This document shows positions 35,816 to 49,130 of a stretch of 64,000 nt of DNA, one piece after another. Each line of letters starts with the position of its first letter. Within the stretch, counting starts at the first letter, position 1. The notes beneath the pieces are model-generated. The model made no database searches. It was not told the DNA's origin and worked only from the letters and a program-made list of their open reading frames with translations. This stretch comes from Bacteroidota bacterium (GTDB taxonomy: Bacteria > Bacteroidota > Bacteroidia > Chitinophagales > Chitinophagaceae), in NCBI GenBank assembly GCA_026391435.1, contig JAPLEJ010000028.1:1-64000 (forward strand), read 5' to 3'. The translations under genes and the position numbers were made by a program.

Positions 35816-35899
35816 GCCCAGATGGCGGAATTGGTAGACGCACTAGACTCAAAATCTAGCGTTCGCAAGGATGTGCAGGTTCGATTCCTGTTCTGGGCA
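35816..35899 (+). tRNA. tRNA-Leu (anticodon CAA)
   Basis: A complete cloverleaf: acceptor stem GCCCAGA (35816-35822) pairs with TCTGGGC (35892-35898), discriminator A at 35899; anticodon stem CTAGA/TCTAG around loop CTCAAAA gives anticodon CAA; a long variable arm as in class II tRNAs; T loop TTCGATT. CCA is not encoded. The last 13 bases are part of the attL core, so the 3' end was restored by the integrated element. Confidence 0.97.
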
Positions 35900-35907
35900 C
35901 AAACCCT
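35887..35907 (+). repeat. attL: left 21-bp direct repeat of the integrated element
   Basis: A 21-bp sequence beginning CCTGTTCTGGGC and ending ACAAACCCT. It covers the 3' half of the T stem, the 3' acceptor strand and the discriminator of tRNA-Leu plus eight downstream bases, and recurs exactly at 48919-48939. The flanking bases differ at both ends, which fixes its length. Confidence 0.93.
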
Positions 35908-35928
35908 CCTATAATGGAGGGTTTTTTT
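35901..35928 (+). terminator. Intrinsic terminator after tRNA-Leu, carried by the element
   Basis: AAACCCTCC (35901-35909), a 6-base loop, GGAGGGTTT (35916-35924) and a T run to 35928. The left half of the stem begins within the att core; the rest comes from the element. It replaces the chromosomal terminator now found at 48933-48967. Confidence 0.9.
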
Positions 35929-36009
35929 ATTAAAAAAGTCAATGTTTTCAATACTTACAAGATTTTACTTTCTCTTGTTTTCCTTTTTTTATCTCTTGTT
36001 TTCCCATAA

Positions 36010-36035
36010 ATTGTACCTTAGTTGTACCTCGTACC
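36010..36035 (+). repeat. Left-end TGTACC repeats
   Basis: TGTACC at 36012 and 36023, 11 bases apart, with a further GTACC at 36031, just before the integrase start. An identical pair with 11-base spacing sits near the right end (48861 and 48872). They are candidates for integrase arm-type sites. Confidence 0.55.
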
Positions 36036-36060
36036 TCAAAAAAAATTAAAATTTAACAAG

Positions 36061-37164
36061 ATGAGTGTAACACTTAGAAAACGAAAAAATGCTGATGGCT
36101 CTTACTCATTAAGGCTTGATATTTATAAGGATGGTGTACACACCATTGAAACTTTAAAGAATTTAAAGCTGTCTAAGGGAAACACAATTGATGAGAGGGC
36201 AAGAAATAAAGAAAATCTCAAACTTGCTGAAGAAATATGTCATCAAAGACGAATCGAATTAGAAGCTAATAACTACAATTTAGAAACTGATACAGGCAAA
36301 AGGACTATTATACTTGATTGGATGGATAGTTACATTAAAGATTATGACAAATCAGATATTAGAAATATTGAAGGTGCAAGAAATCGATTTAAAGACTTTT
36401 TGGAAGGCAAGAAGTTGTCCCGTCTTACATTTGGCAATCTAACACCTTCATTAATCGAGGAATTTATTAGCTACTTAGAATCAAAAAGTATTGGAGAAGG
36501 TGCTAAATCTTACTACGGAAGGTTTAGAAAAATGATAAACAATGCTTATAAAAGCAGAATATTAAAAGAGAACATATTAGATTTTGTTGGCAAATCTCCA
36601 AAAGGAGAAGCGATGGAAAAGGACACTCTAACTACGGAGGAAGTTCAATTACTACTTAATACACCTTTTAACAATAAGAATAAACAAATTAAAGATGCTT
36701 TTATATTCGCTTGTATGACTGGTCTAAGATGGGGGGATGTTAAAGATTTAAAATGGAAACATATTAATATTGAAAAGAACCAAATTAAAAAAATTCAGAA
36801 CAAAAATAAAAAACAAGTAACAATACATATAAATGATACTGTTTATGCACTTATTGGGAAATCACTACCTGCAAATGAAGAATTAAATGTATTTAGTTTA
36901 CCATCACATAATTCTGTAACTAAAGCTATTAAGAAGTGGATTAAGGAAGCTGGGATTAAATTAAAGATAACATTTCACAATGCCAGACACACTTTTGGAA
37001 CAAACCTTGCATTTAATGAAACTGAAGGTTTGACAATTACAAGAATGATGGGACAATCTAATATGGCACAAGCAAAACGATACATAAAAATTGCAAGTGA
37101 AAGGAAAGAGAAGGCAACTAATACTTTAAACTTAGATTTAAGCAGCTATAATGACAAAAAATAA
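36061..37164 (+). CDS. Tyrosine recombinase/integrase
   Basis: A 367-residue site-specific recombinase that should integrate and excise the element at tRNA-Leu. The arm-binding and SAM-like core-binding domains cover about 1-175, the catalytic domain about 190-350. Catalytic residues seen: R223 (TGLRWGD), a Lys in the beta hairpin near 250, H306 and R309 (HNARH) and nucleophile Y341 (YIKIA). The position usually held by His or Trp (in GHS) is Gln332 (GQSN), an uncommon substitution. ATG 36061 is chosen; the longer frame to 36022 runs over the TGTACC repeats. It overlaps the next gene by 14 bases. Confidence 0.95.
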   Translation: MSVTLRKRKNADGSYSLRLDIYKDGVHTIETLKNLKLSKGNTIDERARNKENLKLAEEICHQRRIELEANNYNLETDTGKRTIILDWMDSYIKDYDKSDIRNIEGARNRFKDFLEGKKLSRLTFGNLTPSLIEEFISYLESKSIGEGAKSYYGRFRKMINNAYKSRILKENILDFVGKSPKGEAMEKDTLTTEEVQLLLNTPFNNKNKQIKDAFIFACMTGLRWGDVKDLKWKHINIEKNQIKKIQNKNKKQVTIHINDTVYALIGKSLPANEELNVFSLPSHNSVTKAIKKWIKEAGIKLKITFHNARHTFGTNLAFNETEGLTITRMMGQSNMAQAKRYIKIASERKEKATNTLNLDLSSYNDKK

Positions 37165-38194
37165 CCTACTATACAAATATGATTCAACAACAAGTGATGT
37201 AAAAGATTTGACTAAAAATCATATTGTTAAAATATTTGACGCAGAAGTAAAAGAAATTAAAAAAAGGGGGGAGATTTTACATAATCTAAAAAAAGGAACT
37301 TTACTATACGAATACGAATTCACACCAATTCTAAACCAAGAAGAATACAAAAGAATTTTATCAATGTACAAATCTTCAAAATTATTGAAGGAACTGTACC
37401 ATAAGTTATCATTAATATATAGCGCACTTTATGCTGATTGCATTAAGTGGTATATTGGAAAATCAAGGATTCAAGATGTATTTGATATATCTAAAGATAT
37501 AGAAGACATAAGGAAATTGAAAATAAAAAATAAATGTTGCCCTATAATTAACAACTTGAATGTTGAAGATTTAGATGACACTGATATATTTCAATGGATA
37601 AAATTAGCAATGAACAAAGCCAATTTGAATAATATCATCAACTCAGAAGAGTTACTTTATCAGTATAAAAGTAAAAAGCTCATTAAGCCATATAATTCTG
37701 ATGGCATTGATGTTATTAAGAAAATAAATAACATAGTGTACAAAAGATTTCTAAACTTTCTTATCAAAAAAAGTACGAAAAACGCAGATGATAAACAAAA
37801 TGATACATACTTTGTTTTACAAACATCAATTTCAACTAAAGCAAGTTTTGAGATACTTATAAAGAATATGTTTTTAAGTGAAGACACAAAAGCTAAGGAT
37901 TACGAAGCTATTTTCACAAGTGGTCAAAAAAGGATTAACTGGATTGGCACAAAAAAAGAATTAGGAAGATACCTGTTTTATTTAGACAATGACTGTAAGG
38001 AAGAAAAGCACTTAGCGCCCTGTGATACAATCTATGATAAATACAACATCGCTAGCAATATTTTTTATATAAAAAATATACCTATAACTGAAAAATCACT
38101 TAGAAATTCAAACCGAAAATTAGATAAAATAGATAAAAGAAATGCACTACTAAGTGCAGTAAAGGCATTAAGAAAGAGAGATGTAATTAAGTAA
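37151..38194 (+). CDS. Unknown protein beside the integrase
   Basis: A 347-residue, lysine-rich, helical protein with no signal peptide or membrane segment. It overlaps the integrase by 14 bases, so the two are probably co-translated. The C-terminal part (INWIGTKKELGRYLFYL near 265, then NIASNIFYIKNIPITEKSLRN) has some likeness to the end of RteC-type proteins, which control excision of Bacteroides conjugative transposons, but the match is weak. A role in integration or excision control is inferred from position alone. A terminator follows at 38294. Confidence 0.7.
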   Translation: MTKNNLLYKYDSTTSDVKDLTKNHIVKIFDAEVKEIKKRGEILHNLKKGTLLYEYEFTPILNQEEYKRILSMYKSSKLLKELYHKLSLIYSALYADCIKWYIGKSRIQDVFDISKDIEDIRKLKIKNKCCPIINNLNVEDLDDTDIFQWIKLAMNKANLNNIINSEELLYQYKSKKLIKPYNSDGIDVIKKINNIVYKRFLNFLIKKSTKNADDKQNDTYFVLQTSISTKASFEILIKNMFLSEDTKAKDYEAIFTSGQKRINWIGTKKELGRYLFYLDNDCKEEKHLAPCDTIYDKYNIASNIFYIKNIPITEKSLRNSNRKLDKIDKRNALLSAVKALRKRDVIK

Positions 38195-38293
38195 CTGACC
38201 TAAATTAAATACGCCATTAATACGCCAATAAAAATACTCTTATTATAAACCCATTGATATCATTGCATTTCAAGTGGATAAAATACACAACCG

Positions 38294-38323
38294 ATACGCC
38301 TACCCTTTAGGCGTATTTTTTTT
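38294..38323 (+). terminator. Intrinsic terminator after the integrase operon
   Basis: ATACGCCTA (38294-38302), 5-base loop, TAGGCGTAT (38308-38316) and a run of eight T. A perfect 9-bp stem that closes the integrase two-gene unit. Confidence 0.9.
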
Positions 38324-38360
38324 GTTTTTTACCAAGTTAACTTTGTTGTGTTAACAATTC

Positions 38361-38374
38361 GGAAAGCGCTTTCC
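38361..38374. promoter_or_regulatory. Perfect 14-bp palindrome upstream of the HTH gene
   Basis: GGAAAGCGCTTTCC is fully self-complementary and lies 26 bases before the excisionase-like gene, just after TTGTGTTAACAA. Position and symmetry suit an operator for a dimeric regulator; no regulator is proven. Confidence 0.5.
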
Positions 38375-38400
38375 ATTTTAAAAATTAAAAAATTAAAAAA

Positions 38401-38655
38401 ATGGAACAAGAAAACAAGAAGGTTTTAACCTTCAAACAAGGGTGTGAGCATTTAGGCTATAAGCCAAGTTATGTCTATAAACTAACAAGCGGAAACATTT
38501 TACCATTTAGTAAACCTAATGGCAAATGTATCAGATTTGACCGTGATAAGCTTGATTTATGGATGTTATCTAATAACAATACAACCCAAAAAGAACGAAA
38601 AATAATTGCATCAACTTATCTAAATACTAAAGGAGGTAGTGATTATGGAAAATAA
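38401..38655 (+). CDS. Helix-turn-helix DNA-binding protein, excisionase-like
   Basis: An 84-residue protein of the winged helix-turn-helix type used by excisionases (helix_turn_helix_17 pattern). TFKQGCEHLGYKPSYVYKLT gives the two helices, and FSKPNGKCIRFDRDKLDLWM gives the wing and the trailing helix. Such proteins bend DNA for excision or switch the replication genes. It overlaps the DUF3987 gene by 11 bases, so it is the first gene of the replication unit. Confidence 0.88.
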   Translation: MEQENKKVLTFKQGCEHLGYKPSYVYKLTSGNILPFSKPNGKCIRFDRDKLDLWMLSNNNTTQKERKIIASTYLNTKGGSDYGK

Positions 38656-40117
38656 AATTACCATCAAGGCTGTAGAAGTTGTGCCATTACAAATGGATGT
38701 TCATTCATTAGAAAATAAATCTAAAGATGAAAATTCAAGCATATCAATAGATGATATAAGTAATGAATGTCAAAGTCAACTTAATGAATTAATGGAACAA
38801 CAAAAGAAAAACAACAACCAATTTCCCATTGAAGTTTTTCCTAAAATAGTCCAAAGTGTCATTATTGACACAAATGAAAATTTAAATTACCCAATAGACT
38901 TTATAAGTGGTGCAATACTATATGCCTCATCATTAGCAATAGGTAACACTCATAGGGTATCATTTAAAAAGGAATGGACTGAAAGTGCAGTAATATTCAT
39001 AGTTATGATTGGGAAAGCTGGCACAAATAAAAGTCATCCATTATCATTTGCACTTAAACCAATTGAGAGATATGATAATATTTCATATAAAGAATATCAA
39101 AGAAAGCATCTTGAATATGTAAAAATCGAAACATTATCAAAAAAAGAGAGGGCTGAGCAAGGTATTGATGACCCTGTAAAACCAAGTTTTAAAAAGTTTA
39201 TCGTATCTGATTTTACACAAGAAGCATTAGCTGAAGTTCATAAATGTAATTTAAGGGGCATTACTGCCTATAATGATGAAATTGCTGGATTTTTTAAAAA
39301 TTTTAATCGTTATAAGAAAGGTAGCGAAATGGAATTTTGGCTTAGCGCTTGGAGTGGAAAGCCAATAAAGATAGATAGGAAATCGGGAGAGCCAATATTT
39401 ATACCTTACCCATTTATTTCAATAGGCGGAACTATACAAAATGGACTATTGTCAGAAATTGCAAAGGAAGGTAGAACTGAAAATGGCTTTCTTGACAGAA
39501 TACTATTTGTATACCCTGAAGACATCAAAAAAGAATATTGGAGTGATACTGATATTAATGAAGAAACGGTTGCTATTTGGGACAATGTTATATCTAAAAT
39601 GTTGGAATTAAACTTGGAGTATGATGATATTGATAACCCAAAACCCATTGTCTTAGAATTTTCGGTTGAAGCCAAAAACTTACTATTTGAATGGCAAAAA
39701 ACTAATACTGACCAATGCAATAACCAAGAGACCGAAGTCTATGGCTCAATTTATAGTAAACTTGATATTTATATATTAAGATTCTCATTGATATTAGAAA
39801 TTTTAAGCTATGCTTGCGGTGAGAGTAATAAAGAGGAAATTAGTGACAAATCAGTTAAAGGTGCAATATCAATTATTAACTATTTTAAAAGAACTGCGGA
39901 GAAGGTATATTCAATAACAAGTAATCTGAATCCATTAGAAAAATACCCTTTAAATAAGCGACATTTTTATGAAGATTTAGATGAAGAATTTACTACATCA
40001 GAAGGGATAGCACTTGCGGAAAAATATGGGATTTACAAAAGGACATTTCTGCGATTCCTTAAAGACCAAACACTCTTTCAAAAGCTTATAAAGGGTAATT
40101 ACAAAAAAATGCTTTAG
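38645..40117 (+). CDS. DUF3987 family protein, putative replication helicase/ATPase
   Basis: A 490-residue protein of the DUF3987 group common in Bacteroidota mobile elements. A P-loop GKAGTNKS lies at residues 123-130 and an acidic motif (TAYNDEIAGFF near 210) could be Walker B-like; the C-terminal region is helical. Family members are thought to act in element replication, often next to primase-like proteins, as here. The start is ATG 38645, preceded at 7 bases by AGGAGGT (38631-38637), an unusually strong ribosome site for this phylum. The 9-bp repeat block begins 15 bases after the stop. Confidence 0.85.
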   Translation: MENKITIKAVEVVPLQMDVHSLENKSKDENSSISIDDISNECQSQLNELMEQQKKNNNQFPIEVFPKIVQSVIIDTNENLNYPIDFISGAILYASSLAIGNTHRVSFKKEWTESAVIFIVMIGKAGTNKSHPLSFALKPIERYDNISYKEYQRKHLEYVKIETLSKKERAEQGIDDPVKPSFKKFIVSDFTQEALAEVHKCNLRGITAYNDEIAGFFKNFNRYKKGSEMEFWLSAWSGKPIKIDRKSGEPIFIPYPFISIGGTIQNGLLSEIAKEGRTENGFLDRILFVYPEDIKKEYWSDTDINEETVAIWDNVISKMLELNLEYDDIDNPKPIVLEFSVEAKNLLFEWQKTNTDQCNNQETEVYGSIYSKLDIYILRFSLILEILSYACGESNKEEISDKSVKGAISIINYFKRTAEKVYSITSNLNPLEKYPLNKRHFYEDLDEEFTTSEGIALAEKYGIYKRTFLRFLKDQTLFQKLIKGNYKKML

Positions 40118-40131
40118 TAGCTGTCAATTGT

Positions 40132-40236
40132 GACACTTATGTCACTTTCAAATAATAACAAATCAATTATATGTCACTTGTGTCACTTTAGTCACTATCA
40201 AATATTTTAGTGTCGTAAGTGTCGCAAGTGACACAA
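40132..40236 (+). repeat. Block of 9-bp direct repeats (candidate replication origin)
   Basis: Eight 9-bp units in three groups: GACACTTAT, GTCACTTTC at 40132 and 40141; GTCACTTGT, GTCACTTTA, GTCACTATC at 40173, 40182 and 40191; and GTGTCGTAA, GTGTCGCAA, GTGACACAA at 40210, 40219 and 40228. The first five share the core G(T/A)CACT. The block fills the gap between the two replication genes, and stops in frame with the downstream gene show it is not coding. Iteron-like origin is inferred. Confidence 0.6.
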
Positions 40237-40246
40237 ATAGAAAATT

Positions 40247-41161
40247 ATGAAAAATTATAAATACAAATTAGAACCATATAATGGAAGTAAAAGTAGGCAC
40301 TTATGCCCTTTGTGTAATGATGTAAAAAAGACCTTTACAAGGTACATTGACTCAATAACAGGTCAATATGTTAGTCATTTAGTTGGAAAATGTAATAGAG
40401 AAGTTAACTGCAATTATCATTACCCCCCATCCAAATATTTTAAGGATAACAAAATAGAATACAATATAAATATACCAAAATATATAAATAGGCAGGTTGA
40501 CATTGTGCAGAAAAGAAGCCGAATACCAAATGAAATATTTGACCAATCCCTTAAGGGTTATGAAAATAATAAATTAGTAGAGTTTATGTGCAAGAGAATA
40601 GATGTACAAAAAACGGTCGAAGCAATTGAAAAGTATAAAATTGGGACATCGAAAAAATGGGTAGGCTCTACTGTATTTTGGCAAATTGATGAGTCAAACT
40701 CAATTAGAACTGGAAAAATAATGTTGTATAATCCAATTAATGGGAAAAGAGTAAAAGAGCCATACAATCACATTACTTGGGTTCATTCAGAGTTAGGTTA
40801 TAATGATTATCAAGTTAACCAATGTCTATTTGGGCAGCATTTAATTATCGGCAACGATTTACCTATTGCAATTGTTGAATCAGAGAAAACAGCGGTAATT
40901 GCAAGTACCTATTTGAAATCGCATCTATGGCTTGCAACTGGTGGATTAAATAATTTAAAAACAAGTAACTTTTATAAACTTCAAAACAGAAACATTACAT
41001 TATTCCCTGATTTAAATAGTTATGATAAATGGTTTACCACTATGGCAATGTTGTCTAAAATTGCAAATGTATCTATTTCTTCCCTTTTAGAAGAAAGAGC
41101 TACGGATGAAGAAAAATCAATGGGTTTAGATATTGCAGACTATTTAATAAAGAATAAATAA
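40247..41161 (+). CDS. DUF6371-like primase protein
   Basis: A 304-residue protein with an N-terminal zinc-binding segment (CPLCND near 19 and GKCNREVNCNYHYPP near 50), a middle alpha/beta region and a TOPRIM-like C-terminal part (PIAIVESEKTAVIAS near 207, TLFPDLNSYDKW near 250). This is the layout of DUF6371 proteins of Bacteroidota elements, which resemble DnaG-type primases. With the DUF3987 protein it probably forms the element's replication pair. It follows the 9-bp repeat block directly. Confidence 0.82.
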   Translation: MKNYKYKLEPYNGSKSRHLCPLCNDVKKTFTRYIDSITGQYVSHLVGKCNREVNCNYHYPPSKYFKDNKIEYNINIPKYINRQVDIVQKRSRIPNEIFDQSLKGYENNKLVEFMCKRIDVQKTVEAIEKYKIGTSKKWVGSTVFWQIDESNSIRTGKIMLYNPINGKRVKEPYNHITWVHSELGYNDYQVNQCLFGQHLIIGNDLPIAIVESEKTAVIASTYLKSHLWLATGGLNNLKTSNFYKLQNRNITLFPDLNSYDKWFTTMAMLSKIANVSISSLLEERATDEEKSMGLDIADYLIKNK

Positions 41162-41164
41162 ACT

Positions 41165-41323
41165 ATGAAAACAAAAAAAGAATTAGCCGCATATTATGGC
41201 GTATCTGTTTACATAATTACTAATTGGTTGAAAGAAATTAAGGAAATAGATATAAAACCTTACCAGAAAGTGTTAACGCCTAAACAAATTAAAATCTTAA
41301 TAGAGTATATTGGTACACCATAA
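41165..41323 (+). CDS. Small helix-turn-helix-like protein
   Basis: A 52-residue protein starting MKTKKELAAYYGVSVYIITNWL, with a clear helix-turn-helix (residues about 4-22) like those used by small DNA-binding proteins. It begins 3 bases after the primase-like gene, so it is probably co-transcribed. It may regulate the replication unit. Too short for a family call. Confidence 0.65.
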   Translation: MKTKKELAAYYGVSVYIITNWLKEIKEIDIKPYQKVLTPKQIKILIEYIGTP

Positions 41324-41421
41324 ATGAAATTATATTGTAAAACTAATTAAATGATTTTAGAAGATTGTATTAGATTATAAAAGAATCAATTCAGGAAGTT
41401 AACTCTTTATACTTTTACAAT

Positions 41422-41802
41422 ATGAAAACAAAATGGAAAAGTTTGGACTTGCACTCATTGGCAAATAGGACAAGTCAAGTCGTAATTGGTTTTAAAACTA
41501 CGCCACAATTAAAATTAAAACTTGCAGCAGAAGCTACCGATAAAGGCACTAATATTGGTAGTTATGTTCGCAATATTATTGAAAATCGTGAAAACAATGA
41601 AATTGCTAAAGTTTTAAAAAATGAAAATGTAGACTTGAAAAATAAAATATCAGTTTATGAAAACCCAGAGGCAAAAGCTATCTTAGTTAACTACAAAGGG
41701 AAGGAAGTAGACTATTACGAAAATGGTTTAAAAAAAACTAAGACAATAAATTCAATCGATGATGTCTACTTTGTAATAATGAAATCTTTTAAAACTAAGT
41801 AA
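41422..41802 (+). CDS. Ribbon-helix-helix-like protein, possible mobilisation accessory
   Basis: A 126-residue protein. Residues about 18-55 (VVIGFKTTPQLKLKLAAEA then NIGSYVRNIIE) follow the strand-helix-helix pattern of ribbon-helix-helix DNA-binding or MobC-like accessory proteins; residues 57-80 are charged coiled coil. A relaxase gene usually follows such a protein but none is seen here. The assignment to mobilisation is weak; it could equally be a partition or regulatory protein. Confidence 0.65.
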   Translation: MKTKWKSLDLHSLANRTSQVVIGFKTTPQLKLKLAAEATDKGTNIGSYVRNIIENRENNEIAKVLKNENVDLKNKISVYENPEAKAILVNYKGKEVDYYENGLKKTKTINSIDDVYFVIMKSFKTK

Positions 41803-41803
41803 A

Positions 41804-41977
41804 ATGGAATTTGAACAAATCCACTACCCTTTCAGTAAAGTTTCCTCCCCTACTTCAACAAATAATTCAAAAGGAAACAATACATTGCTTTATTTGGGTT
41901 TAACAGTATTGTTTATTGGAGGAGGCATATATGCTTACAATATGTTTTCCTATAAAATAAAGCCAAATGAACCCTAA
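41804..41977 (+). CDS. Small single-pass membrane protein
   Basis: A 57-residue protein with a polar Ser/Asn-rich first half and one transmembrane segment (LLYLGLTVLFIGGGIYAY, about 28-45). Its start lies 1 base after the previous stop and its end overlaps the next small gene by 11 bases. Function unknown; the tight packing supports that it is expressed. Confidence 0.55.
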   Translation: MEFEQIHYPFSKVSSPTSTNNSKGNNTLLYLGLTVLFIGGGIYAYNMFSYKIKPNEP

Positions 41978-42089
41978 AATCAAATTAGGTACAGCAATTT
42001 TTACCTTTGCATTAATAGTTGGATTTGCAACGATGCTTGTAGAAAGTACAGCAGAACATTTAAATAGAAAAAATGTTAATACCAATTAA
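41967..42089 (+). CDS. Small membrane protein, 40 residues
   Basis: Begins MNPKIKLGTAIFTFALIVGF, so it has a basic start and one hydrophobic segment (about 8-25), then a polar tail. It overlaps the gene before by 11 bases and the gene after by 17 bases. Too small to assign; the overlapping frames make a coding role plausible. Confidence 0.45.
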   Translation: MNPKIKLGTAIFTFALIVGFATMLVESTAEHLNRKNVNTN

Positions 42090-42339
42090 AGTAAACGACC
42101 CAAGTACAATCAAATATTTAGGCATAGGAGATTTAGTATACCTAAGATATATTAAAAATAATTTAGTTGCTATTAGTAATGATAGAACTCAAATTGGCAA
42201 TGTAGTCTCAAAAAGTATATGTCAGATTGAAGACAAGTGTAAGCAGCAAGAAACTGTTAGTTATCTTATATGGGCTATTTTCAAAAAATCAATAATTATT
42301 GAATTGAATGGATATATGTCAACAAGAATCGTATCATAA
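42073..42339 (+). CDS. Hypothetical 88-residue element protein
   Basis: A soluble protein with a beta-rich first half (LGIGDLVYLRYIKNNLVAISNDRTQIGNVV, given here in parts: GIGDLVYLRY and NNLVAISND) and a helical end. It might have a small barrel fold but I do not recognise the family. It overlaps small genes at both ends within the element. Confidence 0.55.
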   Translation: MLIPIKVNDPSTIKYLGIGDLVYLRYIKNNLVAISNDRTQIGNVVSKSICQIEDKCKQQETVSYLIWAIFKKSIIIELNGYMSTRIVS

Positions 42340-42433
42340 ACCCAAGTGTATCAAAATATATCTAAAAAGCAACACTTGGGACTGTGAAAATTGTATTGGC
42401 ATTAATCAAAGAATTAATTTAACCTTAAAGTAA
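42308..42433 (+). CDS. Possible 41-residue zinc-ribbon-like protein
   Basis: An open frame MDICQQESYHK...WDCENCIG with four cysteines (residues 4, 14, 26, 29), the last two a CxxC pair. It overlaps the preceding gene by 32 bases and ends 10 bases before the serine recombinase. The same stretch holds a 9-bp inverted repeat (42341-42349 with 42372-42380), so it could instead be a structured noncoding segment. Confidence 0.35.
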   Translation: MDICQQESYHKPKCIKIYLKSNTWDCENCIGINQRINLTLK

Positions 42434-42443
42434 ACCATTATCA

Positions 42444-43058
42444 ATGGATAGAGCAATTATTGTATCCAGATGTAGCACCAATGAAAAACGACAGGATGTA
42501 TCCCGACAATCGTATGATTTGCAAAACAAGTTTTCAAAAGTTTACGAAATTGTTAAGAAACTTGAATATTACAAGTCTGGGGAGAAAAACGAAAAAGAAA
42601 TAGATGAAATTATTCAGTATGCCATTAATAATAATATCCAACATATTTTATTTTCGGAAATTAGTAGAATCGGAAGAAGAGTAATAGAAACTTTAGTATT
42701 CATTGAAAATTGTACGAAACACAGAATTAATGTTCACATTGACAATTACAATATGAATAGCCTTAACGATGATAAGACCGAAAATATGATGACTAAAATA
42801 ATGCTTCAAATTGGTGCATCATTTGCAGAAATTGAACTTAGGCAAACACATAATCGTTTAAATAGCGGCAGAGCAAAATATATTGCAAATGGAGGTAGGC
42901 TTGGTCGAAATCCAGACACAAAGTTAACTAAAGAACAAATTTTAGAAAAACACAAGGATATTATAAAGTATTTGAATCAAGGTCAAAGTATAAGGAACAT
43001 AATGAAGTTAACTGCTAAAAGTAGCGGTACAATACAAAAGGTTAAGCAGCTAATTTAA
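42444..43058 (+). CDS. Serine recombinase (resolvase/invertase family)
   Basis: A 204-residue small serine recombinase. The catalytic serine is probably S11 in VSRCSTNEK, followed by RQSYDLQ; the conserved arginine region is SEISRIGRR near 69-77, and helix E is around MTKIMLQIGASFAEIELRQTHNR. The C-terminus (LTKEQILEKHKDI ... SSGTIQKVKQ) is a helix-turn-helix for site binding. It could resolve element multimers or invert a segment. It converges with the M4 peptidase gene, 16 bases apart. Confidence 0.9.
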   Translation: MDRAIIVSRCSTNEKRQDVSRQSYDLQNKFSKVYEIVKKLEYYKSGEKNEKEIDEIIQYAINNNIQHILFSEISRIGRRVIETLVFIENCTKHRINVHIDNYNMNSLNDDKTENMMTKIMLQIGASFAEIELRQTHNRLNSGRAKYIANGGRLGRNPDTKLTKEQILEKHKDIIKYLNQGQSIRNIMKLTAKSSGTIQKVKQLI

Positions 43059-43074
43059 GCAAATTAGCTATGTC

Positions 43075-46000
43075 TTATAATTTGAATATCTTAAAATTCT
43101 GTCTTACCTTATTGTCACTTGTATAGACTACAAAAAGATATAAACCAGTTGAAAGTTGTCCGAAGTTTATTTGACTACCTGCGTTTATGTTTAATTTAGA
43201 GTTAACCTTTGCACCTGAAGTAATATTATAAACATCTATATTTAATAACTGAACCCCCTTTATCACAAAATCAATATTAATTTGGTTATAAAAAGGATTA
43301 GGAGCCAACTTGATAAACTCATTTACACTTAAGTTAACAACATCAGTAATCAAATAAAAGTATTGATTGCTAAAACCACTTGTGCAACCATTTAAAGAAG
43401 TTTTGATTTTATATAGTCCATTTGCAGTTGGCTTAACCTTTTGAGTTGTATCGGAAACCAATAAACCATCTTTATACCAAGTATTACCATAAGTATTTGT
43501 CGAGACTAAATTATTAGAAGCATCTCTTGATAGCGTAGGAGTTAATGGTGTTATATTTGTAGTGATATAAACACCTGAACTTAATGAACTTGAAATGCCA
43601 TCTACGTTAGTTAAAACCATATAATTTCCTGCATTTTTTGTACTATACATACTACCAGTTGCATTTACAATAGGACTACCATTTCGATACCATTGATTAC
43701 CTATCGTTGCACTTGAGTTTAAAATTGTACTATCTCCAGTACATAAATTAGTATTTCCAGTTATATTTATATTTGGTTTAGAAGGAACTGCAAATTTTCT
43801 TACACCAACCGTATAATATATTGGAAATTTTGCATTATTAAATAAGGTAGCTATTGTTCCACTTGACGATATTTTATCCGTATTTAAACTTAACGACGCA
43901 ATTGTTAATTTACTATTTGTGATAGTATTAAATGCGATTTTATCATCGTTTTTATTAAATGTTGGATAGCCAATTGTATTATTAAGAAAAATTCCACCAA
44001 GATTATTTGTTTGTAAATTATATCCAATAATACCATTTGTTTTTGTACTATCGTTAAAATAATCAAAAGCAAATATGTCAGGAGAATTTTTTGAGAATGT
44101 TGGATTACCTATATTGTCCCCGTTTCCTAAATTAAAAACCTTTGAAACTACCCCACTTGAAGTAGTGTCTTTTGCCTTATTCCAAACATTAATAATATTA
44201 ATATCCCAATATTTAATTTCTGCATTTGAATTTGTACTTGCAATTTTATTATAGCAATCATAAATTATATTTTCACTACTATAATCCCACTCAAAAGAAT
44301 CTGCATATATTGGTCCATCCTTTTTTATCCCATTTGTATATGTTGGATTATATAATTTAAATCTATACCATTTTGTTTTCCCAAAATCATAAACATAAAT
44401 TGACGAATCTTGATAAGTAGTAACTGCAGCAAGCCTTTTACCATCCTTTGAAATAGATACATTATTCCACATAGGTGTACTCTGAATAATTGAATAAGTA
44501 GGCTGTGATATTGTTGGGTCAGTAGTGATAGAATATATTTTTTTATCAAATCCAACTAAATAAGCTGTTTTTCCATCATCTGTAATACTTGGTTTATTAT
44601 TTAATTTTTTTGACCAAAGCGACTTTAAATTAGGAGTAGCTATGTAAAGTGTTGTATCTCCTGTGCCATATAGAAGCATATTTTCTACTCCAGTATTTAC
44701 TGGTAGTTGTTTTACTATTAAAGGTGTAACACCATCTGTAATACCTACGGCATCAAAAGCCAAGCCTGCTTGCAATACTTCATTTGAAGAATATAGGTCT
44801 GATGAAGCTTTGATAATAATTAACCTTAAATCAGTAAAATTTGAATTAGGCAATAAATAAGTTGTTAAAGCTCTATAGTATACTCTTGAAGCTTTTAATC
44901 TACCAATTGCGTTAGCAAATAAAAAAAAAGCATAGTTTGGTATACCACTATTAACATGTACACCCTCGTAATCTCTGTCAGGATATTTATCTAAAATTGT
45001 ACCCGAAAGATACTCATTCATATGTTTTGGTTGCCAACCATTATCATTTGAACTTTTTCCTCCATTATGAGGGTCCATTAAGGACCTTAATGCACCAGAT
45101 GGATAATAAGCTTTATTAACTACCATTTCTCCAATAGTCCAATTTGCAGAATCTACCATTGCTCCAAAAATATCAGCAAATGATTCATTTAAGGCGCCAG
45201 ATTGGCCATTATAAACCAACTTTGCTGAATTATCCACCACTCCGTGAGTCATTTCGTGCGCGGCAACATCTAAACCACCAGCCAAAGGTTTGAACTGCTT
45301 ATATCCATTACCAAAGAACATTGAATTAAGAGCCCAAAAGGCATTATCTAATGGCAAACCTAAAGAATCTACAATTACATTAACATATGAATTAATGTTT
45401 CCACCTTTTCCATCAATAGAATTTCTATTATGAACATTTTTATAAAAATCATAAGTAATACTCAAATTATTATGAGCAGATGTTTGTGTTGGACTCCAAG
45501 TATTTGTTGTATTTATTATTTCATCAGCATTTTGATTTTTACCATATGTATTATTAAAATCAAAGGTTTCTATGTAACCATTACCTTTAGTGCTATTATA
45601 CATAGGTTTAGAAATATCTTTTAAAACATAATTTGAACCAGTATAAGTGACATTTATCTTTTGACTTACTCCATTTAAATCATTCGAATTAGTTATATTA
45701 GGTACATCAATTGTGCAAGTTGTGTTATAAGAAGATAAAATTATACCACTATTAGCATCTATAAAGTATTCATATCTATCAAGAATGTTAGCAAAATATA
45801 TTATTTTATAGGCAAGCTTATTTTTATAAATTATTGTATCAATTGTAATGAAGTTACCTCCAATTAATTTAAGTTGAAAAGCATTAAATTCAACCAAACT
45901 GGTCTTTTTTGCTAAATCAACTTTTAAGTTTTTTATTGCATTTTCAATTGTCAAAGTAGGAACAACTTCAATTTTATCATTAAATATTGAATAACTTCCA

Positions 46001-46587
46001 TTAAAAAGCTCTCCCTCTCCATTAGCATTTAAATGTATCAAAAACTCACTACCATATATCTTTATGCCATTATACTTTTGTTGAAATTTAATATGGCTTT
46101 TCCCATTTGATTCAATATTTGTCTCCAAAATCTCAAGATTTTGTCTTGGATTAGAAATATGAGTAATTGATTCTAACTCATCAAGGAAATTATATGATAG
46201 GCTGTTTACCTCTGATGTTGATTTTATCCTTTTTGTTGTGTCGATACTTTGAGACTTAATTGTTTCCTTAATTAAATTCATCTCAATAAAAATTGGCAAA
46301 CTGGTCTCTTTTGAATAAACAACTTTAATATTTGTATCAATTATTTGATTCTTTAAGGCATCTACATAAAGGGGCTTCAAGAAAGTGTTTTGGACAACAG
46401 CTACTCCATTATTTATAATTACGGCATCAAGGCTATTTACTAAACGATTTGTGTCCTTATTTAAGGGTCTGGTAAATTTATTAACAACTTCTTGTGAATA
46501 GGAGATAACGCTCATAGACACAAATAATGCTACAATTATAGTTTTTTGAGTAATAATAAGAATCCGTTTAGCTATTTTGTGCATCAT
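43075..46587 (-). CDS. Secreted M4 (thermolysin-like) metallopeptidase with T9SS sorting domain
   Basis: An 1170-residue secreted protease. I choose the ATG at 46587, which starts a signal peptide (MMHKIAKRIL ... ISYSQ); the longer frame overlaps the gene upstream. Order: signal, FTP/PepSY-like propeptide (about 30-290), M4 catalytic domain (about 300-640) with zinc ligands H444 and H448 (HEMTH) and E468 (NESFAD), a propeller-like region with TolB-type repeats (about 650-950), two Ig-like repeats, and a type A T9SS sorting domain (about 1085-1170, LAPNPF and LSTGLYLF). It should be exported through the type IX system and matured by propeptide loss. It is cargo of the mobile element, on the opposite strand to the replication genes. 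Confidence 0.93.
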   Translation of the reverse strand: MMHKIAKRILIITQKTIIVALFVSMSVISYSQEVVNKFTRPLNKDTNRLVNSLDAVIINNGVAVVQNTFLKPLYVDALKNQIIDTNIKVVYSKETSLPIFIEMNLIKETIKSQSIDTTKRIKSTSEVNSLSYNFLDELESITHISNPRQNLEILETNIESNGKSHIKFQQKYNGIKIYGSEFLIHLNANGEGELFNGSYSIFNDKIEVVPTLTIENAIKNLKVDLAKKTSLVEFNAFQLKLIGGNFITIDTIIYKNKLAYKIIYFANILDRYEYFIDANSGIILSSYNTTCTIDVPNITNSNDLNGVSQKINVTYTGSNYVLKDISKPMYNSTKGNGYIETFDFNNTYGKNQNADEIINTTNTWSPTQTSAHNNLSITYDFYKNVHNRNSIDGKGGNINSYVNVIVDSLGLPLDNAFWALNSMFFGNGYKQFKPLAGGLDVAAHEMTHGVVDNSAKLVYNGQSGALNESFADIFGAMVDSANWTIGEMVVNKAYYPSGALRSLMDPHNGGKSSNDNGWQPKHMNEYLSGTILDKYPDRDYEGVHVNSGIPNYAFFLFANAIGRLKASRVYYRALTTYLLPNSNFTDLRLIIIKASSDLYSSNEVLQAGLAFDAVGITDGVTPLIVKQLPVNTGVENMLLYGTGDTTLYIATPNLKSLWSKKLNNKPSITDDGKTAYLVGFDKKIYSITTDPTISQPTYSIIQSTPMWNNVSISKDGKRLAAVTTYQDSSIYVYDFGKTKWYRFKLYNPTYTNGIKKDGPIYADSFEWDYSSENIIYDCYNKIASTNSNAEIKYWDINIINVWNKAKDTTSSGVVSKVFNLGNGDNIGNPTFSKNSPDIFAFDYFNDSTKTNGIIGYNLQTNNLGGIFLNNTIGYPTFNKNDDKIAFNTITNSKLTIASLSLNTDKISSSGTIATLFNNAKFPIYYTVGVRKFAVPSKPNINITGNTNLCTGDSTILNSSATIGNQWYRNGSPIVNATGSMYSTKNAGNYMVLTNVDGISSSLSSGVYITTNITPLTPTLSRDASNNLVSTNTYGNTWYKDGLLVSDTTQKVKPTANGLYKIKTSLNGCTSGFSNQYFYLITDVVNLSVNEFIKLAPNPFYNQINIDFVIKGVQLLNIDVYNITSGAKVNSKLNINAGSQINFGQLSTGLYLFVVYTSDNKVRQNFKIFKL

Positions 46588-46615
46588 ATAATTATTGTAA
46601 TAATTTGAAATTAGA

Positions 46616-46960
46616 TTAATTTTTATCAGCTTCACATTGCCATTCATTAAAAAGCACATAAAACTGACCAGTAAATCCATTTTCTTTTACATTCATCTTA
46701 CCACCTCTTGGGCTAATTAAATCACCTTTAAGAAATACACCATCTTTGTTAAAGACCGTTTCATATGCAAAGAAAGTCCAACTTGTACCCACTCCAGAAT
46801 CCTTATCCTTAAACCATTTGGATTTTAAATCAGCTTGAGTGAATATATTACTTGTTCCTTTTGGAGGATAACAATTGAGCTTGTAAGTACCGTTATTTTT
46901 TTGTGCAAATATATGTGCAATGGAAAAAATCGCAAATATTGTAAATAATATCTTTCTCAT
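46616..46960 (-). CDS. Small secreted protein of unknown function
   Basis: A 114-residue protein with signal peptide ending near IFAQ and a compact beta-rich body with two cysteines (NCYPP near 30 and WQCEAD near 110), which may form a disulfide. No family recognised. It sits 28 bases upstream of the M4 peptidase start on the same strand, so it could assist or be co-expressed with it. Confidence 0.65.
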   Translation of the reverse strand: MRKILFTIFAIFSIAHIFAQKNNGTYKLNCYPPKGTSNIFTQADLKSKWFKDKDSGVGTSWTFFAYETVFNKDGVFLKGDLISPRGGKMNVKENGFTGQFYVLFNEWQCEADKN

Positions 46961-46973
46961 GTTTAATGTTTAT

Positions 46974-47819
46974 CTATTTATTCAATATTAATGGTGTAAG
47001 CCTTTTTTTAAGTTCGTCATATTCTATTTGTGTAATTTCTCCCTTATCAAGTTGATTTTTAGCAGATTTTAGTCTTTCAATTGCCTCTTCTTTGGTAAGC
47101 CTTAACGAATATCTATCTATAACCGAATCATACTCTTTTTTTGTAAGTACACCTAAATCAAGAAGTACTTTTGCTTCCTTGACTTTCTTTTCAGATTCTA
47201 TGGAATTAACATTTGGGTATTGTGGTTTAGGCAAATTCTTCTCATCTTCAATAGTTAATGCAACAATTTCAACAATTACTTTTACGCCTTGCAAATCTCC
47301 TATATTTTCAATCCCCATCCACAAGTTTTGATTAACTATATTGTTTTGACCATAGAAGGAATTGACATTTAGTACAGAAAGATTATTCCAATGAGAAAAA
47401 ATCCTTTTTTGTTTAAAGTTGAATTCATCACCCGATTGCCCCATAAAAAAAACATTTATTCTGCCATTATTGGTATATAAATTAGTTGGATTTTTGTTGT
47501 TAGCCATCAAAAAATATAATGTCTCATCGTTTCTGTAGCTATAATTTGCGTTTATATCAAGTACGGTTAATCTGTAAAACCAGCGATATGATGTCTCAGG
47601 TAGTTTAATTTCAATAGTTTTTCTATTCTGACCACCCAGAAATGCTGAATTTGAAATTGAGTTCAAACTTAAAGTGTCAGTTGATACATTATTTACATAA
47701 AGCGGCTTATCCTTAAATCCGTTACCAATAAGCCTTAAGATTTCTTGGAAATCAACTCTTTGTCCAAAGGAAGTTGATAAAAAAAATATTGCAAAAATTG
47801 TGATGAAACCCTTTTTCAT
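46974..47819 (-). CDS. Secreted protein with C-terminal SHOCT-like repeats
   Basis: A 281-residue protein with signal peptide ending near FGQ, a beta-rich body (about 25-200) and two short helical repeats at the end: VKEAKVLLDLGVLTKKEYDS near 214 and IERLKSAKNQLDKGEITQIEYDEL near 245, both of the SHOCT form. SHOCT motifs are thought to mediate oligomer contact. It is the first gene of the minus-strand cargo set, 13 bases before the next. Function unknown. On the minus strand TATATTTG at 47861-47854 is a possible -7 box. Confidence 0.7.
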   Translation of the reverse strand: MKKGFITIFAIFFLSTSFGQRVDFQEILRLIGNGFKDKPLYVNNVSTDTLSLNSISNSAFLGGQNRKTIEIKLPETSYRWFYRLTVLDINANYSYRNDETLYFLMANNKNPTNLYTNNGRINVFFMGQSGDEFNFKQKRIFSHWNNLSVLNVNSFYGQNNIVNQNLWMGIENIGDLQGVKVIVEIVALTIEDEKNLPKPQYPNVNSIESEKKVKEAKVLLDLGVLTKKEYDSVIDRYSLRLTKEEAIERLKSAKNQLDKGEITQIEYDELKKRLTPLILNK

Positions 47820-48224
47820 AAGGTAGATTTAAGCTGAAGTATTAATTTTGTTACAAATATACCTTTCCGATAAACTCTTCTTGTTCATTGACGCTAAGTT
47901 AAGATATATTATTTACTAAAATATCAAAGCACTACCAAATCACCCATTTTGACCAAATTTTGATGAAATCAGTCTCCATAACCTTCCAATAATCAATTTG
48001 TATAGACCTATAAGCTCGAAATTTGCCATTAAATCCAATAAATGAGTAATTTATACTAACGGTAAATATGGGTGTCAAAAATGCGCTTAAAAAATTAAAA
48101 TGAATTACTTTTAAATGATGTAATTCAAAATGATATTTTATAAAATAATAGTAATAAATTAAATTTGATTGGTTGCATTTATTATAGGTAAAAGCAAATA
48201 AGTCTAAGTAATAATAAATCCATT
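47820..48224. other. Divergent intergenic space in the element
   Basis: 405 bases between the minus-strand SHOCT gene and the plus-strand zinc-ribbon gene. It is strongly A+T-rich and without open frames worth calling. The only possible signal is the minus-strand TATATTTG near 47857. It should hold promoters for both genes. Confidence 0.5.
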
Positions 48225-48851
48225 ATGGCATTAATTAAATTTAGATACTGCGCTCAATCAATATCTGACAAAGCACTTGAGTGTGTTCATTGTTATAGAA
48301 CAACTGGAGCAAATAATCCAATTTATATACCAATAAAACATTTAATAATAGATTCAAGCTGTCCTAAATGCGATTGGGAAATATTTGAGGATTCAGAAAA
48401 TTGTGTTGGATGTGGGGCTAAAGCTTGTAAAATAATTCAATTTGAACTTGCAATAGACTGTTATGAATGTGGGTGTTCAATTATAAATAAAAATACTACT
48501 AATTGTAAAAGCTGTGGCGCTCCTTTAATTTTATTTACAAGTCCAATTAAAATTGATATACAACATTTCGACTTCCCTAAATTAATGAGTTGGGATGAAG
48601 CAAACAAAGCTTGCTCCTTATTAGGAAATGGGTGGAGATTACCCGATAATGACGAACTTTTTATTTTATATACTTATCGAGATATAATCGGAGGATTTGT
48701 AGAGGATAGATATTGGAGTTCAAGTGAATCTTTAATAAAAAATGGAGAATTAGCAGAATTTAGAAGTTTTGAAGCCCTTTCCCAAAAAGGTGGAACAGTA
48801 AAGTTGGAGGAATATTATGTTCGTGCAGTTAGGTCAATTTTAAAAGAATAG
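48225..48851 (+). CDS. Zinc-ribbon protein with C-terminal DUF1566/Lcl-like domain
   Basis: A 208-residue cytoplasmic protein. Three zinc-ribbon-like segments come first: a damaged one at 5-24 (one leading cysteine lost, FRYC ... CVHC), then CPKCDW ... CVGCGAK near 46-65 and CYECGC ... CKSCGAP near 78-100. The C-terminus (about 120-208) has WDEANKACSLLGNGWRLPDNDEL and YWSSSE, the Lcl/DUF1566 fold that resembles C-type lectin-like binding modules. The pairing is unusual. It is the last gene before attR and probably cargo. Confidence 0.72.
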   Translation: MALIKFRYCAQSISDKALECVHCYRTTGANNPIYIPIKHLIIDSSCPKCDWEIFEDSENCVGCGAKACKIIQFELAIDCYECGCSIINKNTTNCKSCGAPLILFTSPIKIDIQHFDFPKLMSWDEANKACSLLGNGWRLPDNDELFILYTYRDIIGGFVEDRYWSSSESLIKNGELAEFRSFEALSQKGGTVKLEEYYVRAVRSILKE

Positions 48852-48860
48852 AATATATTT

Positions 48861-48920
48861 TGTACCCTTATTGTACCTTAAATCAGATAACTAATTGATT
48901 ATCATATATAATATTGTACC
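48861..48920 (+). repeat. Right-end TGTACC repeats
   Basis: TGTACC at 48861 and 48872 (11 bases apart) and again at 48915, where it runs into attR. The 11-base word ATTGTACCTTA occurs at 48870-48880 and at 36010-36020. Candidate integrase-binding arm sites. Confidence 0.55.
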
Positions 48921-48939
48921 TGTTCTGGGCACAAACCCT
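48919..48939 (+). repeat. attR: right 21-bp direct repeat of the element
   Basis: An exact copy of 35887-35907, holding the last 13 bases of tRNA-Leu and eight bases beyond. It marks the right border of the element. Confidence 0.93.
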
Positions 48940-48967
48940 GTCACGATTTATCGGGACAGGGTTTTTT
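48933..48967 (+). terminator. Original terminator of tRNA-Leu, displaced to attR
   Basis: AAACCCTGTC (48933-48942) pairs with GACAGGGTTT (48955-48964), followed by T to 48967. Its left half begins inside the att core. In the unoccupied chromosome it would follow tRNA-Leu. Confidence 0.88.
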
Positions 48968-49054: not shown

Positions 49055-49130
49055 TTTGGGTACGCCCGCCTAATAGGAAGACGTTTTGAACAAAGTGAAA
49101 AACGGCAGTCCTATTTGGGTACGCCCGCCT
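49055..49130. repeat. 17-bp direct repeat around an inverted repeat
   Basis: TTTGGGTACGCCCGCCT occurs at 49055-49071 and 49114-49130. Between the copies AATAGGA/TCCTATT and CGTTTT/AAAACG make a nested hairpin (49072-49115). No open frame covers it. Likely a repetitive intergenic element or a structured RNA; copies elsewhere in the genome would decide. Confidence 0.65.

Follow-up and report, generated by a model that had tools for sequence, protein, structure and literature searches.

Phage-inducible chromosomal minimalist islands (PICMIs) of Vibrionaceae are found with a search model whose profiles include PF00589, PF12728 and PF13148 (PMC10803314; what is said here of cited papers refers to the accessible parts of their texts). 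In complete genomes the authors' model recovers 135 elements, of which 67 belong to Vibrionaceae, so that int-alpA-prim sets outside that family are not new to the literature. Their hallmark, according to the authors, is integration at fis, and the only complete PICMIs reported in that text are from Vibrio; they do not depend on capsid-remodelling genes, some carry restriction-modification, and in 21 of 35 subfamilies a gene overlaps int by 1, 4 or 13 nt (PMC10803314). We describe here a 13,032-bp element at the 3' end of a tRNA-Leu(CAA) gene of a Bacteroidota bacterium (Chitinophagaceae; GCA_026391435.1, contig JAPLEJ010000028.1, forward strand), lying in a 64,000-nt stretch that was analysed as a whole and is called the window. 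It carries the PICMI gene set of an integrase, an AlpA-type helix-turn-helix (HTH) protein (PF12728 or PF05930) and a DUF3987/DUF5906 protein, with three profiles above cut-off, and its orf2, which begins at 37151 and overlaps int (stop 37164) by 14 nt, is the positional counterpart of the int-overlapping gene (iolg) of PICMIs; no such overlap is present in three related loci considered below (L014, L146 and L164). Capsid genes are absent in both cases, and restriction-modification, found in some PICMIs, is found in two relatives of the element (L146, L164). Unlike PICMIs, which average 6.7 kb in Vibrionaceae (PMC10803314), the 13-kb element is integrated at tRNA-Leu rather than fis and encodes a separate DUF6371 protein and a pair formed by a ribbon-helix-helix (RHH) protein and a single-transmembrane (TM) microprotein. 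Because of the different target it is not filed as a PICMI.

Other described systems share other parts. Bacteroidales mobilizable transposons and NBU-type integrative and mobilizable elements (IMEs; PMC4755523) likewise have a tyrosine integrase, an excisionase, a primase family gene and in some cases a tRNA target, and a title in the reference list of that paper places NBU1 at tRNA-Leu; here, by contrast, a relaxase is not matched and the RHH protein with its membrane microprotein replaces the MobC-relaxase pair. The iOriT elements, IMEs with an origin of transfer (oriT) and without a relaxase (PMC11389934), are also integrative and, as this element would, need a relaxase and mating apparatus in trans; they differ in that an oriT was not identified here and that the element appears to have its own replicon. 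Cryptic integrated elements that have a primase yet lack genes for conjugation or phage functions (class iii of PMC5862659, where DUF3987 is a predicted helicase) fall in the same general category, although theirs are archaeo-eukaryotic primases whereas here there is a zinc-ribbon DUF6371 protein. Replicons of the staphylococcal cassette chromosome (SCC) and Staphylococcus aureus pathogenicity islands (SaPIs) resemble this one in having repeats directly downstream of the helicase gene and a primase gene beside it, and their helicase has a C-terminal DNA-binding domain such as the DUF3987 protein may have; they are unlike it in that here the integrase is of the tyrosine type and the target a tRNA, the protein families are DUF3987 and DUF6371, and the 9-bp array is inverted, whereas in SCC direct repeats, not inverted ones, are needed for binding (PMC7581432). 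The 204-aa serine recombinase of the element is of resolvase/invertase size. SCC elements, which are not known to carry transfer genes, integrate by large serine recombinases (ccr).

The explanation that we favour, and regard as probable, is that the integrative element is complete, has a replicon of its own, lacks transfer machinery and depends on a helper to move. The element itself is real and delimited. As the first-pass annotation of the window had described, it is bounded by 21-bp direct repeats that prove 100% identical (35887-35907 and 48919-48939), the left copy including the final 14 bases of the tRNA-Leu gene; the tRNA was called by both ARAGORN and Rfam, and the gene beside attL is indeed that of a tyrosine integrase, with catalytic and SAM-like domains above cut-off and the Arm-binding domain just below. 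The listed integrase open reading frame (ORF) begins with TTG at 36022, the likely start being the ATG at 36061. G+C content in 2-kb windows is 28-31% within the element and 32-40% outside. The motif TTGTACC occurs eight times on the forward and four times on the reverse strand of the window, and five of the eight forward copies are at the element ends (36011, 36022, 48860, 48871, 48914), with two more elsewhere in the element; from this placement it is a probable integrase arm site. A hairpin and T run on the element side would replace the terminator of the tRNA gene, and what reads as the host's own hairpin/terminator now stands 3' of attR at about 48934-48967. Variability of the block, also expected from the first reading, is seen in one relative: among 60 other genomes of the genus the downstream neighbour, a VWA protein, was present in 52, loci were fetched for 29, and in the single locus with tRNA-Leu within the fetched flank (L086; the other 28 being uninformative) an HscB-like gene, tRNA-Leu and the host flank are contiguous without the element; the VWA protein of this genome is 98% identical to that of the window. 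A host repeat, TTTGGGTACGCCCGCC, is present in two copies after attR (49055-49130), and copies resembling it border, in L086, an additional stretch that the window lacks and that by eye apparently encodes two short proteins.

The earlier failure to recognise a relaxase, coupling protein, capsid or terminase gene holds up in profile searches of the 14 listed element proteins (Pfam and PHROGs on all 14, NCBIfam on 10), which gave only chance-level matches to genes of these kinds. No relaxase was matched up to E 1 in Pfam or NCBIfam, no type IV secretion system (T4SS) or coupling protein gene was matched in the same two scans, and no capsid, portal or terminase stood beyond chance level in PHROGs. 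The only packaging-labelled match, that of phrog_57 (terminase small subunit) to a 52-aa HTH protein at E 0.23, is read as chance, as is the below cut-off match of PF14283 ("mobile element protein CD1107-like") to the TM microprotein at E 0.029. orf2 was considered as a hidden relaxase and gave no family match in Pfam, PHROGs or NCBIfam; it has eight database proteins including itself and a distant homologue in L014, and its AlphaFold model has a mean predicted local distance difference test score (pLDDT) of 56.5, hence no fold search was made. With neither T4SS and coupling genes nor capsid, portal and terminase genes recognised, the element is not a standard integrative and conjugative element or prophage.

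The replication pair was correctly called, DUF3987 and the combination of Zn_ribbon_16 with DUF6371 both being well above curated cut-offs. The DUF3987 protein has, by eye, an HTH-like C terminus. The DUF6371 proteins (window gene 40247-41161) show in alignment a zinc ribbon at the N terminus, together with the conserved stretches ESEKTA and PDLN, and so bear a likeness to a DnaG-like toprim fold; neither the DUF6371 alignment nor the window DUF3987 protein matched a solved structure up to E 1. Between the two genes, directly downstream of that of the helicase as in SaPI/SCC-type replicons, is an inverted array of ~9-bp repeats (40118-40246) with arms at 40172-40197 and 40208-40233 and an additional half copy at 40122-40154. 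Its DNA fold z is -4.4, and 0 of 200 shuffles fold as well. The arrangement recurs: an inverted-repeat score of at least 10 is found at DUF6371 starts in 54 of 85 regions, whereas control starts from these loci reach it in 88 of 820 cases, and it persists in 37 of 58 regions once primases at least 70% identical are removed, while 9 is the best direct-repeat spacing (score at least 9) in 32 of the 85 regions and 18 of the 820 controls. The regions are those of loci with DUF6371 on the forward strand (85 after L003, with the gene on the other strand, was dropped from 86), and the controls are mechanical ORF starts of at least 150 aa. The array sequences vary among loci and the inverted ~9-bp layout is constant; in L146 the array lies downstream of a gene in which VapE is fused to DUF6371, that is, still beside the helicase gene (by eye, no control). 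The stretch 40118-40246 is thus a predicted replication origin.

The helicase C-terminal domain is the probable reader of these repeats. Among 36 non-redundant loci repeat similarity follows the last 75 aa of the helicase, whether the primase (partial r 0.387, p 0.001) or the remainder of the helicase (partial r 0.232, p 0.001) is controlled for, and given the C terminus the repeats keep no link to the primase (0.000) or to the helicase core (-0.016). The set of short helicases (up to 430 aa), in two of which (L025, L006) AAA_25 was confirmed by Pfam, gives r 0.551 (p 0.001, n=17); types were assigned by an in-house DUF3987 profile and by length. The array-reader model agrees with that published for SaPI Rep and SCC Cch2 (PMC7581432).

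From these parts a cycle may be proposed. Together with the HTH_17 factor, and probably orf2 as well, the integrase would excise a 13-kb circle from tRNA-Leu; the DUF3987 protein would bind, through its C-terminal domain, the ~9-bp repeats that come directly after the helicase gene, and would so open the origin (40118-40246); synthesis would be primed by the zinc-ribbon protein with DUF6371; and the serine recombinase would resolve multimers. The candidate origin, the RHH-microprotein pair (41422-41977) and the serine recombinase are parts that the first-pass annotation did not include.

Searches for DUF6371 elsewhere show that its replicons are modular. A scan of named genomes confirmed at least 563 loci, of which 80 were kept; near the host DUF6371 is rare (2 of 150 relatives searched, its own genome included). 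Upstream there is often an integrase, a variable gene, an HTH_17 gene and a helicase-like gene, the last of at least three kinds, namely DUF3987, AAA_25 with an HTH-like C terminus (L025, L006), and the VapE fused to DUF6371 of L146. Downstream a relaxase follows in 19 of the 80 loci, with a MobC-type RHH gene between where this is readable; the profile used was grown from one protein of L117, outside the 80, so that other relaxase families in the remaining 61 loci are missed by this count, and Pfam, run on one of the 19 (L058) and on L117, confirmed PF03432 in both. In the prophage-like locus L032 a similar front end is followed by a terminase small subunit and a tape measure protein. The integrase-DUF3987-DUF6371 set, offered at first as a marker of such elements, is therefore not diagnostic, since a relaxase can come after DUF6371 (19/80) and, in at least one locus, phage genes come after a front end of the same kind. 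Three unannotated GenBank records from human faeces named "Bacteriophage sp." (L117, MT836643.1; L115; L116) encode DUF6371, and L117, with its PF03432 relaxase, looks like a mobilisable element filed as phage.

Three loci may be set beside the window. L014, from a Chitinophagaceae metagenome-assembled genome, has a similar downstream set (HTH, RHH, TM, serine recombinase, HIRAN), with no second att repeat in its contig; 10 of its proteins, up to position 9366, were scanned with Pfam. Of the loci reached with the RHH profiles two are delimited elements, L146 at tRNA-Pro by 51-bp repeats (98% identical; 9.9 kb) and L164, found like L151, L152 and L153 through weak profile matches, at tRNA-Asp by exact 19-bp repeats (14.3 kb); they carry type IIG and type II restriction-modification, respectively. 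Neither gave a relaxase or capsid match in Pfam; the scans covered 8 of the 13 ORFs called in L146, where the remaining 5 do not exceed 140 aa, and 13 of the 20 in L164, where the remaining 7 do not exceed 154 aa. With two more delimited elements of this kind the element is not one decayed copy. That it is a mobilisable element that has lost its relaxase and become fixed is accordingly quite improbable, even though relaxase-bearing relatives have DUF6371 and often the front end too, for the att repeats are exact, the frames open, the site empty in a relative, and close homologues lie on other contigs (73-83% for orf2, 87-92% for the RHH protein).

In the element the RHH gene is followed by the microprotein gene. 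A short single-TM ORF comes after the RHH gene in 10 of 10 loci with downstream sequence, as against 5 of 114 other genes there; the ten include L164, which shares only the C-terminal part, and the near-identical copies L152 and L161, while L148 and L150 run off their contigs. A motif Q-x-x-[FY]-P near the N terminus of the microprotein, noticed after the fact, is present in 7 of the 10; L153 has QTHFT, and L149 and L164 are without it. In the window, L014 and L146 the RHH gene comes after DUF6371 and a small HTH gene, and in L149 directly after DUF6371, near the position of MobC in relaxase-bearing loci. The best fold match of the RHH model is an N-terminal fragment of NikA (E 0.53, probability 0.92); MatP and Arc/CopG-type RHH proteins are also among the matches, none of which has E below 0.5. 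NikA is the oriT-binding relaxosome protein of plasmid R64. The RHH protein of L014 matches the NikA-like PF21983 (E 6e-4, below cut-off), and 9 of 120 among the RHH homologues listed (124 database members) carry that domain; the NikA likeness is suggestive only. The RHH profile found relatives in 10 of 395 genomes of the class with two rows and in 11 of 395 with 19 rows, own genome included, and the two-row profile found one of 395 in a draw from the phylum, its own. No published description of the repeat array or of the RHH-TM pair was found in the literature searched, in whose coverage subscription journals are mostly absent.

The pair also occurs in other settings. At four tRNA-Glu(TTC) loci (L151 799-3300, L152 7431-11163, L153 5943-9893, L161 6766-10493) an integrase, a small HTH, the TM microprotein and the RHH gene are found, with a 389-402 aa protein in three of the four, for which two scanned examples gave no family above cut-off. 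They were considered as minimal mobile elements; no attR-type repeat was found and they are not counted as delimited, being perhaps fixed remnants or very small elements. At these loci and at L147 the pair was seen without DUF6371. L147 has a perfect inverted repeat of 14 bp immediately before its RHH gene (1678-1709), possibly an operator or transfer site, and in L164 (7908-9080) the RHH-family C-terminal part is joined to a RimK-type ATP-grasp domain, the TM microprotein following.

If the element moves by conjugative mobilisation, the RHH protein and the membrane microprotein would dock the element DNA to the relaxase and coupling system of a helper. A rather doubtful alternative is that they serve to segregate the replicating circle or to anchor it to the membrane, transfer taking another route or being rare. 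Such a role would suit the constant pairing of the two genes (10/10 loci), the MatP and Arc/CopG-type fold matches, and the co-occurrence of the pair with the replicon and, in the window, L014 and L164, with a serine recombinase; yet no plasmid-partition-type ATPase is recognised, no centromere-like site is shown, and the pair is also present at the tRNA-Glu loci, which have no recognised replicon. Unlikely, as we judge it, is the far-reaching reading that the pair, with its Q-x-x-[FY]-P microprotein, is the core of an undescribed, relaxase-free hand-over of replicating circles of Bacteroidota to a helper membrane machine, joined to a modular replicon whose 9-bp repeats match the helicase C-terminal domain.

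As to the route, the suggestion of a satellite or of a mobilisable element using a helper has survived as the best reading. Conjugative mobilisation with a relaxase in trans, which we put forward tentatively and as somewhat short of an even chance, is slightly preferred to phage packaging on account of the RHH position and the NikA likeness; similar front ends precede both relaxases and phage genes, so that the front end cannot decide. It is possible, if again less than evenly so, that the element is a PICMI-like minimal satellite of Bacteroidota, excised upon infection by a helper phage, replicated to concatemers and packaged in unmodified helper capsids; once in the new host, concatemers would be brought down to unit circles by the integrase and resolvase. 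The gene order of int, int-overlapping orf, HTH_17 and DUF3987 resembles the PICMI core (PMC10803314), the restriction-modification genes of L146 and L164 have their parallel in some PICMIs, and L032 joins a similar front end to phage genes. However, integration is at a tRNA and not at fis, the hallmark of islands of which the accessible text reports no complete case outside Vibrio (PMC10803314), and the front end is no pointer to phage, given that a relaxase comes after DUF6371 in 19 of 80 loci. Nor was any relative of orf2 or of the RHH protein confirmed in viral-contig scans, or the window RHH matched in 50,697 phage records, collections that under-sample satellites.

Several points weigh against the favoured explanation of a helper-dependent element with its own replicon. 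Excision, replication and transfer are deduced from sequence. The ungapped inverted-repeat score of the window array (11) is matched by 1 of 60 shuffles. The helicase-repeat link is carried by the short-helicase set and the contrast of types; for DUF3987 types alone it is not significant (r 0.177, p 0.15, n=13), which makes the window's own helicase type the weaker case, and in the larger redundant set (52 loci, relatives kept) the primase keeps a small independent link (partial r 0.108, p 0.012). No oriT was identified when the intergenic stretches were folded, a reading made with no reference oriT at hand. In the host assembly, which is 84% complete, there is no match to the PF03432 relaxase or PF19044 TraG ATPase, other relaxase families not having been sought, so that no such conjugative helper is seen there. 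The fold match to NikA has its E of 0.53, the RHH proteins of the window and L146 are unmatched in 72,556 plasmid records, and MobC profiles match the RHH protein weakly (hhalign probability 27%), for which reason it is not accepted as a plain MobC.

Table 1. Coordinates of the element, its target and its genes in the window
Feature	Position	Strand	Evidence
tRNA-Leu (CAA), integration target, 3' end restored by element	35816..35900	+	ARAGORN; Rfam RF00005 61 bits
attL core, 21-bp direct repeat	35887..35907	+	100% identical to 48919-48939
Hairpin and T run, would replace tRNA terminator on element side	35902..35929	+	read from sequence
Probable integrase arm sites, left end (TTGTACC x2, GTACCT x3)	36011..36036	+	inferred from position
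Tyrosine integrase	36061..37164	+	PF00589 77.8 bits, PF13102 58.5 bits; PF17293 22.2 bits, just under 22.6 cut-off
orf2, 347 aa, no family	37151..38194	+	Pfam, PHROGs, NCBIfam
HTH_17 excisionase/AlpA-type protein	38401..38655	+	PF12728 35.6 bits; phrog_66
DUF3987 predicted replicative/initiator helicase	38639..40117	+	PF13148 195.2 bits; phrog_2373 DNA helicase
Inverted array of ~9-bp repeats, candidate replication origin	40118..40246	+	DNA fold, repeat scores
Zinc ribbon and DUF6371, predicted primase	40247..41161	+	PF21957 84.5 bits, PF19898 197 bits
Small HTH protein (52 aa), DUF4248-like, below cut-off here	41165..41323	+	profile search
RHH DNA-binding protein, conserved C-terminal domain	41422..41802	+	alignments; AlphaFold pLDDT 74; 124 database homologues
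57-aa single-TM microprotein, N-terminal QIHYP	41804..41977	+	ORF/TM analysis
88-aa protein, weakly like L014 HIRAN-domain protein	42073..42339	+	27% identity, pairwise E 3e-4
9-bp inverted repeat (CCCAAGTGT..ACACTTGGG), possible serine recombinase site (inference)	42341..42380	.	fold z only -1.7
Serine recombinase, resolvase/invertase type, 204 aa	42444..43058	+	PF00239 70.6 bits; phrog_125
Cargo: M4 (thermolysin-like) metalloprotease with Por secretion tail	43075..46680	-	PF01447, PF02868, PF07504, PF18962
Cargo: 114-aa protein, no family	46616..46960	-	family scans
Cargo: SHOCT-domain protein	46974..47819	-	PF09851 27.2 bits
Cargo: zinc-ribbon / Lcl_C-like protein, below cut-offs	48225..48851	+	family scans
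Probable integrase arm sites, right end (TTGTACC at 48860, 48871, 48914)	48860..48920	+	inferred from position
attR core, 21-bp direct repeat	48919..48939	+	repeat search

Among the smaller features listed in Table 1, DUF4248 is above cut-off at the place of the small HTH gene in L014 and L146, and the inverted repeat before the serine recombinase gene is one that 8 of 200 shuffles fold as well. The serine recombinase was rejected as an orthologous core gene, those of the window and L014 aligning over 43 aa only and none being detected in L146.

DUF3987 and DUF6371 are domains of "unknown function" that stand side by side in many mobile elements of Bacteroidota. The recurring array that tracks the helicase C terminus gives both families a testable job as well as a way to spot replicons. 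With delimited elements that have the RHH-membrane pair and no relaxase match, the movement of elements without visible transfer genes becomes directly testable.

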